Source: Erysipelotrichaceae bacterium (GTDB lineage Bacteria > Bacillota_I > Bacilli_A > Erysipelotrichales > Erysipelotrichaceae). From it: 64,000 nucleotides of DNA. The notes beneath the pieces were generated by a model. The model was not told where the DNA came from. It did not search any database and saw only the letters and a program-made list of their open reading frames with translations. Both the position numbers and the translations under genes were made by a program. The first letter of the stretch is position 1. Every line of letters starts with the position of its first letter. The stretch is taken from the NCBI GenBank assembly GCA_015058955.1, contig SVBJ01000006.1, forward strand, positions 1-64,000, read 5' to 3'. This document shows, piece by piece, positions 55,000-59,516 of this stretch.

Positions 55000-55482
55000 G
55001 TGGCCAAGAAATATGATTCCTTAGCACATACGAAGTACTACTGTAAGTATCACATAGTCTTCACTCCAAAGTATAGGCGAAAAGTAATATACAATCAACT
55101 TAGGGGAGCGATAAGAGACATAATAAAGGATCTGTGCAGGTATAAGGGAATAGAGATAGTGGAAGGACATATGATGCCGGACCACATACATCTGTTATTG
55201 TCGATACCACCGAAGTATTCGGTATCAGAGATCATGGGATATCTGAAGGGAAAGAGTTCGTTGATGATATTCGATAAGTATGCCAATCTGAAGTACAAAT
55301 TTGGCAACAGGAGATTCTGGGCTGAAGGATACTATGTAAGCACAGTAGGGCTCAACGAGGCCACTGTGCGTAAATACATCCAGGAGCAGGAGAAAGCAGA
55401 CATAGCGAAAGATAAGCTGAGTGTCAAAGAGTACGAAGACCCATTTGGGGAAGACAAGGAAATAAAAAAGCCAAACAAGTAG
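55000..55482 (+). CDS. tnpA: IS200-type Y1 transposase TnpA
   Basis: The 160-aa protein is a single-strand DNA transposase with an HUH fold. The metal-binding motif is in MMPDHIHLLL, with His62 and His64, and the catalytic tyrosine is Tyr126 in TVRKYIQEQEKA. The N-terminus (HTKYYCKYHIVFTPKYRRKVI) is typical of the family. The start is GTG, with GAGGTGAT seven bases before it; that site can be sequestered by the leader. Length is normal and there are no disruptions, so it may be active. Confidence 0.95.
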   Translation: MAKKYDSLAHTKYYCKYHIVFTPKYRRKVIYNQLRGAIRDIIKDLCRYKGIEIVEGHMMPDHIHLLLSIPPKYSVSEIMGYLKGKSSLMIFDKYANLKYKFGNRRFWAEGYYVSTVGLNEATVRKYIQEQEKADIAKDKLSVKEYEDPFGEDKEIKKPNK

Positions 55483-57432: not shown

Positions 57433-57504
57433 GGATCTCTTAAATTAAACGTGGATTAGCGTGGATGATAAGAGAAAAATCAAAAGCTTTTAAATTAAAC
57501 GTGG
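57433..57504 (+). repeat. Palindromic repeat copy A, left part
   Basis: This 72-bp stretch matches the first 74 bp of copy B (59403-59476) almost base for base. It contains TTAAATTAAACGTGG twice in direct orientation (57440-57454 and 57490-57504) and the CGTGGAT-TAG-CGTGGAT doublet. TCTCTTA and TAAGAGA inside it can pair. After 57504 the match to copy B stops and resumes at 57878. Confidence 0.85.
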
Positions 57505-57506
57505 AT

Positions 57507-57536
57507 AATCCAGGTAGGTAACTACCTGGATTTCTT
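57507..57536 (+). terminator. Hairpin downstream of the large membrane protein gene
   Basis: AATCCAGGTAG (57507-57517), loop GTAA, CTACCTGGATT (57522-57532): perfect 11-bp stem followed by TCTTGT. It could end the transcript of the 578-aa gene, but the T-run is poor. Confidence 0.5.
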
Positions 57537-57560
57537 GTATGTGATAATGGTCAAAAATGG

Positions 57561-57812
57561 TCAAAACACGCTTTCTGAAACGTTCAAAATTATATAACCA
57601 TAAACAGCTTTATTGATAGTTTTCAGCTGGATGTTAAGGCCTTTGACTATGACATTAGTGTAAAAATCTGATTTTATCAGCGCCGGAATCCATATATTTT
57701 TAGGATATTTATTCAATAAATTGATTCTGATCTCAGTAGTATCAGTAACAATAAAATGACGCGAGATGATACATGTCTTGCATAGTATTATGCTAAAAAT
57801 CACTTGAGTCAT
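57561..57812 (-). CDS. Small ORF, possibly a NIL-domain-like fragment
   Basis: The 83-aa frame has an AAGGA-type ribosome site four to five bases before its ATG. The C-terminal half (EIRINLLNKYPKNIWIP and FYTNVIVKGLNIQLKTINKAVYGYIILNV) has the strand-helix-strand rhythm of the NIL domain found at the end of methionine-transport ATPases, but this is a by-eye impression. It may be a real small protein, a relic of a larger gene, or chance. It lies wholly inside the segment that splits repeat copy A. Coding bias is weak. Confidence 0.3.
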   Translation of the reverse strand: MTQVIFSIILCKTCIISRHFIVTDTTEIRINLLNKYPKNIWIPALIKSDFYTNVIVKGLNIQLKTINKAVYGYIILNVSESVF

Positions 57813-57839
57813 CTCATCCTTTTTTGTTCAATTCACAGT

Positions 57840-57860
57840 ATAAGGCAAGCCTTATTTTTT
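57840..57860 (+). terminator. Orphan plus-strand terminator
   Basis: ATAAGG, loop CAAG, CCTTAT, then six T. No plus-strand coding region ends nearby; the closest stop is 420 bases upstream. It could end an unannotated RNA or a long 3' UTR. Confidence 0.7.
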
Positions 57861-57877
57861 ATCCTTTTTATAAACTA

Positions 57878-57924
57878 TTAAATTAAACGTGGTTTTTACC
57901 TTTCTTCGTCCACGTTTAATTTAA
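57878..57924 (+). repeat. Palindromic repeat copy A, right part
   Basis: TTAAATTAAACGTGG (57878-57892), a 17-base spacer identical to that of copy B, and CCACGTTTAATTTAA (57910-57924): a perfect 15-bp inverted repeat. It is the terminal half of the element seen complete at 59403-59516 and lies 48 bases before the next lipoprotein gene. Confidence 0.9.
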
Positions 57925-57971
57925 AGTACCCAGTATTAGTGGTATTATGTATTTAGATGGGAGGTTAAGAA

Positions 57972-58397
57972 ATGAAAAAGATTTCATTAATCATATTAAC
58001 ATTGCTAATTCTTCTGGGCTGTTCACCAAAAGTAAATGTGGATTATGGAAACTCAGAAATATATACCAGAAATGATATTGATGAGGCAATTAAGGCGATC
58101 AATGCTCTTAATCCTGGTGCTTATGATGTTACACTGGACAATTTTGTTTACATGGGTGATGACAGGGCAACAGACGAATCGATTATAGAATATGCTAACA
58201 ATCTGGGACATGCGAATAATCTGATTGGAGACCATGAAAGCTTTACGCAGGTTCTGGTTTTAACGTGTACATTTAAAACAGGGAAAAAGGGAAATGAGGG
58301 ACAGCCTCCAAATAAGACATATGATGACTGGCAGATATATCTGGCCAGAGTATCCCCGGACAGTAAATGGATTTTCCTTACCTGGGGATTAGGTTAA
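57972..58397 (+). CDS. Small uncharacterised lipoprotein
   Basis: The 141-aa protein has a typical lipoprotein signal (MKKISLIILTLLILLGC, lipobox LLGC, Cys17). The mature part is acidic, about 125 residues, with a helix DIDEAIKAINAL and a strand-rich end (TQVLVLTCTFKTGKK and WIFLTWGLG). No family is recognised. Similar small lipoproteins are frequent near mobile regions. The ribosome site GGGAGG precedes the ATG. It lies between two copies of the palindromic repeat, and base composition is more AT-rich than that of the housekeeping genes. Confidence 0.65.
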   Translation: MKKISLIILTLLILLGCSPKVNVDYGNSEIYTRNDIDEAIKAINALNPGAYDVTLDNFVYMGDDRATDESIIEYANNLGHANNLIGDHESFTQVLVLTCTFKTGKKGNEGQPPNKTYDDWQIYLARVSPDSKWIFLTWGLG

Positions 58398-58424
58398 GAT
58401 AACGATTTCATGGTTTAACGCATA

Positions 58425-58446
58425 AGAGGCCCAGGCCTCTTTTTTT
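58425..58446 (+). terminator. Terminator of lipoprotein gene
   Basis: AGAGGC, CCAG, GCCTCT, then six T. Confidence 0.88.
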
Positions 58447-58543
58447 ACAGAAGGCAAAGAGATAATTAAAACAGGATAATAGTTTTTTCATTCCTGCAGC
58501 CCTGATCAATGATTTAGAATAATCATATAAAAGGATAAAACAT

Positions 58544-59356
58544 ATGACTATTCAAGAAATCATTGATAAGATCCTGGCTTATCATCCAAATATCGGCGAC
58601 CGCCGTACCTGTGACGTTATCGTAGGGGCTGATCCGAACCGTGAATGCACAGGTATTCTGATCTCCATTGCTCCAACTGTTCCAATCATCCGCAAGGCCA
58701 TTGAGATCGGCGCGAACTTCGTGTTTGTTCATGAGCCTACTTTCTTCAGCGGTTATGATGATGAATGTGAGTGGCTGGAAGGGAATGAAGTATACGAAGA
58801 AAAACTAGCTCTGCTTTTGGATAACGGAATCACTGTATACCGTGACCATGACCACATTCATGCACACCGTCCTGACGGCATCTTCCATTACATGATGAAG
58901 CATATGGGCTGGCTGGAGTATCTGAATACACGGGAGAGAGGCTGGGAAGTCGTTCTTCCGCCGACCCGTCTTGGTGATCTGATTGCTCACGTAAAAGAGA
59001 GAATGGGACTCGAACACATCCGCTACATCGGTGATCCGGATGCCATCGTTTCCACGATCGGTTTCTGCGGACACCTGCTTCCGGGGGCTGACAGCAACTG
59101 GAGCAACAATGCTCAGGTAGCCGCCAGCTGGAAGTATGATGTGGTAATACCGGGAGAAACCGTTGACTGGACACTGCCTTTATACATCCGTGATGCTGTT
59201 GATCTGGGTAAGGCCAAAGCCATGATCGTACCTGGTCACTTTGTTCAGGAAGAAGCCGGCATGCGTCTGGCTGAAGAATGGTTAAGACCGGTCGTAGGTG
59301 ATGACAGTTTGCCTATTTCCTTCTTCCCGGCAGGGGACATGTGGAAATACGACTGA
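58544..59356 (+). CDS. Nif3-like dinuclear metal-centre protein
   Basis: The 270-aa protein belongs to the NIF3/YbgI family, hexameric proteins with a two-metal site. Expected ligand regions are visible: FVFVHEPTFFS near residue 63, VYRDHDHIHAHRPDGIFHYM near 98-117, and the C-terminal PGHFVQEEAGM near 227-237 (His and Glu). Family members have been linked to GTP cyclohydrolase I type 2 annotation and to RNA or nucleotide metabolism, but the function is not settled. An AAAAGGA ribosome site precedes the ATG. The gene lies between the two repeat copies. Confidence 0.82.
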   Translation: MTIQEIIDKILAYHPNIGDRRTCDVIVGADPNRECTGILISIAPTVPIIRKAIEIGANFVFVHEPTFFSGYDDECEWLEGNEVYEEKLALLLDNGITVYRDHDHIHAHRPDGIFHYMMKHMGWLEYLNTRERGWEVVLPPTRLGDLIAHVKERMGLEHIRYIGDPDAIVSTIGFCGHLLPGADSNWSNNAQVAASWKYDVVIPGETVDWTLPLYIRDAVDLGKAKAMIVPGHFVQEEAGMRLAEEWLRPVVGDDSLPISFFPAGDMWKYD

Positions 59357-59377
59357 TTCATACTGAATAAAAAATGA

Positions 59378-59402
59378 AGCCATCGTCAAGATGGCTTTTT
59401 GT
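59378..59402 (+). terminator. Terminator of Nif3-like gene
   Basis: AGCCATC, GTCAA, GATGGCT, then five T. Confidence 0.87.
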
Positions 59403-59516
59403 GGATCTCTTAAATTAAATGTGGATTAGCGTGGATGATAAGAGAAAAATCCAAAATGCTTTTAAATTAAACGTGGTTTTTACCTTTCTTCGTCCACGTT
59501 TAATTTAAAAGAACCT
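59403..59516 (+). repeat. Palindromic repeat copy B (complete)
   Basis: This 114-bp element contains TTAAATTAAATGTGG (59410-59424), the CGTGGAT-type doublet, and then a perfect 18-bp inverted repeat CTTTTAAATTAAACGTGG (59459-59476) / CCACGTTTAATTTAAAAG (59494-59511) with a 17-base loop. It follows the Nif3 terminator directly and precedes the 3' end of cca. It is nearly identical to the two parts of copy A. It encodes no protein. It is a candidate non-autonomous mobile repeat or a regulatory RNA or DNA element. Confidence 0.88.

Follow-up and report, generated by a model that had tools for sequence, protein, structure and literature searches.

The locus and its two repeat copies

The stretch of DNA analysed here, 64,000 nucleotides from an Erysipelotrichaceae bacterium (hereafter the window), contains two copies of a palindromic repeat, denoted copy A and copy B, which flank two genes, one for a lipoprotein and one of the Nif3 type. 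The block that they form with these genes comprises:

57433–59515, no strand assigned: whole block (copy A, lipoprotein gene, Nif3 gene and copy B), missing between the flanking genes in the related genomes G003 and G008
57972–58397, forward strand: small lipoprotein gene, predicted, inside the block; a 74% identical gene lies at an unrelated place in G008
58544–59356, forward strand: Nif3/DUF34 gene inside the block

Pairwise comparison of the left parts of the two copies (57433–57485 in copy A; 59403–59455 in copy B) gave 96% identity, and that of the right parts (57875–57925; 59459–59509) gave 98%; the two-copy repeat flanking both genes, first described in a sequence-only reading of the window, is thus real. 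The same reading had described a core in direct and inverted orientation, and a hairpin in copy B with an 18-bp stem and a 17-base loop, both of which are confirmed: the stem is perfect over 18 bp and the loop is 17 nt (59459–59476 / 59494–59511), whilst the 15-bp core TTAAATTAAACGTGG has six exact occurrences, and one with a single mismatch, at the copy A and copy B sites. When up to three mismatches were allowed the window held eight matches to this core, compared with 1.7 expected, and none of 100 shuffles gave as many. No further copy of the repeat is present in the window's own 1.78-Mb genome assembly beyond copies A and B. A complete IS200/IS605-type Y1 transposase gene (55000–55482, forward strand; PF01797, E = 9.6e-41) is located approximately 2 kb to the left of copy A.

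The repeat halves match the ends of an ISL3-family insertion sequence

Copy B was searched against 98 genomes, i.e. the window's own and those of relatives. On contig C215 of G003, which belongs to the same genus, the two halves of copy B are separated (left, positions 5–41; right, positions 1404–1466), and a single 442-residue transposase gene lies on the reverse strand between the left-end and right-end sequences. The encoded protein matches PF01610 (E = 5.2e-45) and the ISL3 model NF033550 (score 225 bits, cut-off 180; E = 1.4e-66), which identifies it as an ISL3-type DDE transposase; the window retains only relics of such a gene. The location of the copy B halves on either side of an ISL3 transposase gene in G003 implies that the repeat is a pair of ISL3-family insertion sequence (IS) ends, and the view that it represents a new kind of repeat has to be given up. 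Terminal inverted repeats starting with GG, 22 bp long and of the form GGNNCT...GTGG, are common to the window copies and the relatives. On the evidence of these sequence comparisons, copies A and B are very probably decayed descendants of one ISL3-family IS of approximately 1.48–1.5 kb. The sequence-only reading had held that a mobile-element interpretation would fail if neither the genome nor relatives contained further copies and the two copies were a recent local duplication; relatives contain the parent IS.

The G003 IS is almost complete, its left terminal repeat falling beyond the contig start; as this copy runs off its contig, no single complete, near-identical IS was seen. Only fragments, and no complete IS of this ISL3 type, are present in the window's own assembly. 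Two ISL3 transposase fragments from that genome (G000:C25:90985–91242, locus L087, and G000:C22:13–243) lie near contig edges, the distance to the contig end being approximately 190 bp for one, whilst the other is at the start of its contig; assembly may thus have lost related IS copies. A relic of the same IS type in G002 (L060 5699–5935; G002:C14) consists of a left end and approximately 150 bp from the 3′ portion of the transposase gene; no right end was seen in its vicinity.

Other sources for the repeat were considered and rejected. The IS200-type transposase gene at 55000–55482 belongs to an unrelated family, and the repeat ends match ISL3. With respect to a viral origin, 37 viral contigs each contain one single core and none contains the full palindrome, which is consistent with chance. 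A plasmid origin gave no match to plasmid DNA, and the best-ranked of the listed plasmid ISL3 transposases are approximately 31% identical.

Copy A retains part of the insertion sequence interior

The following features were assigned to copy A:

57433–57931, reverse strand: copy A, internally deleted ISL3-family IS with approximately 500 bp of approximately 1.5 kb left (aligned stepwise with the G003 IS across a gap of approximately 1 kb; ends aligned with relatives)
57433–57454, forward strand: left terminal inverted repeat, GGATCTCTTAAATTAAACGTGG (sequence, and end alignment with relatives)
57490–57504, forward strand: left-end inner core, a direct copy of the terminal core (repeat comparison)
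57507–57532, forward strand: terminator-like hairpin CCAGGTAG-GTAA-CTACCTGG, belonging to the IS at the transposase 3′ end and also found in the G003 IS
57525–57665, reverse strand: transposase C-terminal relic, 64% identical to G003 residues 399–442, with one in-frame stop (tblastn, E = 9.7e-6)
57878–57924, no strand assigned: palindrome of the right end, made up of inner core, 17-nt loop and terminal core, with the terminal repeat extending to 57931

Because the transposase of copy A is on the reverse strand, the left end holds the 3′ end of the gene. Copy A can be chained to the G003 IS through the left inner core, the 3′ part of the transposase, then the 5′ part with the leader, and finally the right end, the alignment jumping from G003 position 319 to 1249. 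Blocks of 68–98% identity to the G003 IS account for nearly all 373 bp of the copy A interior; at its inner left end a 65-base block is 98% identical, and the innermost blocks are 68–79% identical. This alignment, together with the tblastn match to the transposase C-terminus, indicates that the 373 bp, at first taken for an insert, are IS interior and that the gene lacks approximately 1 kb. Copy A is indeed split, but the extra bases within it are not an insertion. Since they are what remains of the parent interior, the longer copy A is the more ancestral form, which would have arisen when approximately 1 kb of the transposase gene was lost from the parent IS.

An alternative is that a new 114-bp non-autonomous repeat was hit, in copy A, by an unrelated 373-bp insertion that duplicated the 15-bp core, as might be concluded from the presence of the core on both sides of the segment. 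We consider this explanation almost certainly wrong, since the segment shows homology to the coding sequence of an ISL3 transposase and to its flanks, arranged as they are in an IS that has these ends, complete relatives have the core at both of these inner positions, and the model is already contradicted by the arrangement at G003:C215. Thus, of the proposal that the locus holds a non-autonomous mobile repeat that had itself been targeted, the first part stands, as the DNA is that of a mobile element and copy B is non-autonomous; the second does not, the repeat not having been an insertion target itself.

Copy B is a 113-bp solo derivative

One further feature was assigned by comparison with copy A and the relatives:

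59403–59515, no strand assigned: copy B, solo (MITE-like) derivative, GGAT...AACC, its ends fused at one shared 15-bp core (59462–59476)

The element had earlier been placed at 59403–59516 (114 bp); it is real, but complete relatives put its end at 59515, giving 113 bp. To the right of the shared core, 17 of 17 bases are those of the copy A right end, compared with 4 of 17 for the copy A left end; to the left of the core, copy B tracks the IS left end, with a small indel. Judged by these alignments, copy B is the same IS minus everything between the two inner 15-bp cores, with one core kept. The exact single-core junction is itself seen in the sequence, and the deletion from core to core probably occurred by slippage or recombination between the 15-bp direct repeats. 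Such a loss would leave both terminal inverted repeats on a solo element of 113 bp. The junction agrees with the earlier suggestion that the cores of the element recombine, since copy B resulted from a deletion that joined the two inner direct cores.

MITEs are thought to derive from ISs by internal deletion, and in Methanosarcina acetivorans a 179-bp, ISL3-derived MITE is linked to ISMac21 (PMC3852290). Copy B is like the ISMac21 MITE in being short and gene-free, in having both ISL3 terminal repeats and in being explicable by internal deletion; it differs in that it is a single 113-bp copy instead of a multi-copy family, and in that its deletion falls exactly at subterminal direct repeats. 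No other solo-form copy was found in the window's genome or in the 97 other genomes searched. Copy B has the short, gene-free form and both parental terminal repeats of a MITE, but is not dispersed in several copies; as it is a single copy and its mobility is putative, 'MITE-like' is the accurate term for it, and not MITE family.

Layout of the ends in related elements

A scan of genome contigs gave ISL3 relatives, mostly labelled Erysipelotrichaceae, with transposases 50–56% identical; end layouts were compared for those relatives whose ends are present in the sequence. Their transposase-3′ ends carry the 22-bp GG-starting terminal repeat together with a further half-site of the GTGG type and an inner core in direct orientation; in their transposase-5′ ends the inner core is inverted, making the palindrome. 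The direct inner core is positioned at +56/58 in all left ends, and the inverted one at +39/40 in all right ends (L140–L146 and G002). In nearly all ends the inner-core match was at least as good as the best of 2,000 shuffles; in the left end of L140, however, the core match of 11/17 is no higher than the 95% shuffle level. The core sequence varies by element (TTAAATTAAACGTGG, TAAATTCTAGCGTGG and others), with the outer and inner sites tending to co-vary. Some more distant ISL3 elements have iterated subterminal repeats in other arrangements (six in L072 and five in L151, counted over both ends; at most two in shuffles), and many others of the distant elements are without any.

Perfect 8-bp target duplications (ATCATTTC in L141; TAAAAAAA in L143) fix the ends; L142 has no 8-bp duplication, and no exact one surrounds either copy A or copy B. 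The duplications in L141 and L143 agree with that of Tn7546, a transposon with an ISL3 transposase, for which an 8-bp duplication and the 11-bp repeat GGGTCTTCGGA are reported (PMC9782665). The elements described here are ISL3-like in their transposase domain, their GG-starting terminal repeats, their length of approximately 1.5 kb and, in two relatives, their 8-bp duplication; they are unlike the family in that the window copies are defective and in that the subgroup has inner cores at fixed distances from both ends.

The palindrome could also have been kept as a functional RNA, or as a terminator hairpin serving the neighbouring genes. The predicted fold of copy B is very stable (−33 kcal/mol, z −5.0) and the palindrome sits between convergent genes, both as would be expected of such an element. 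However, the core is about equally well kept as the direct repeat of the left end, which is unable to form this hairpin; no terminator-like call falls on the palindrome, separate hairpins following nif3 and the lipoprotein gene; and common descent from an IS accounts for the likeness of the window copies. A known structured RNA was rejected, there being no Rfam match at the gathering threshold. We regard retention as an RNA or terminator as very unlikely. The left-end inner core, being direct, matches approximately as well as that of the right end, which favours transposase-binding sites over a selected hairpin, and the best reading of the repeated cores, as of the palindrome at the right end, is that they are putative subterminal binding sites for the transposase. 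Transposition would, on this reading, keep cores and palindrome conserved.

The two direct repeats of approximately 15 bp just inside the ends might allow an IS of this kind to collapse precisely to a solo element of 113 bp in which both termini are retained. It is conceivable, though we hold it only tentatively, that the subgroup with inner copies of the terminal site (direct at +56/58 from the transposase-3′ end, inverted at +39/40 from the transposase-5′ end) possesses an inbuilt means of turning an IS into a MITE, as well as an asymmetric end complex with multiple sites that is, as far as we know, undescribed for ISL3; the open-access literature searched yielded no description of a fixed inner-core layout for this family.

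The block between the copies and its flanking genes

On contig C152 of G003, a gene 92% identical to ORF581 (the gene left of copy A) is followed by a short terminator and a convergent cca gene, with no block; ORF581 and cca likewise adjoin on contig C17 of G008. The comparison with empty sites proposed in the sequence-only reading is thus available, the flanking genes adjoining without the block in both genomes. Because these genes are neighbours in G003 and G008, an assembly chimera between two Nif3 copies is unlikely. In G002, other genes lie between ORF581 and cca (L135 4855–6865; G002:C3), one of them apparently a galactokinase gene as judged by eye, and this interval may gain genes repeatedly.

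The genome from which the window derives also has a Nif3 paralogue, split over the contig ends C27/C28, with 94% amino acid identity over 169 residues on C27. Compared with window positions 58433–59400, this second copy breaks at the end of G000:C27 (L125) and the start of G000:C28 (L124); at both breaks, runs of 75–77 bp show no difference from the window copy, which suggests that the assembly broke at a tract shared by the two.

Relatives of the lipoprotein and Nif3 genes are found in G008, at unlinked places. Most simply, the window gained both copies together with the lipoprotein and Nif3 genes between them, with borders at the outer IS ends. Extending the reading of both copies as IS descendants, the block 57433–59515 may be a degraded composite transposon in which two ISL3 copies in direct orientation moved both genes as a single unit, a proposal to which we give about even chances. 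It would account for the coincidence of the block borders with the outer IS ends, for the absence of the block from G003 and G008, and for the occurrence of relatives of both genes elsewhere in the genus, unlinked. Against this, the sequences flanking the block (ATTTAAAG / TAAAACAT) are identical at only 2 of 8 positions, a loose AT-rich similarity and no exact 8-bp duplication; a second example of the block was not found; and two separate IS insertions, with the genes gained otherwise, could give the same arrangement. As in composite transposons, two copies of one IS surround two genes at a site that is block-free in relatives; unlike in composite transposons, both IS copies are defective, and the exact target duplication around the whole unit is gone.

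Implications

What looked like a new repeat class is ordinary decay of an IS, neat in its anatomy. A full IS, an internally deleted copy and a solo form can here be aligned side by side, which makes the locus a clear example of such decay. The fixed multi-site layout of the ends in the Erysipelotrichaceae ISL3 group is a candidate for transposase-binding tests.
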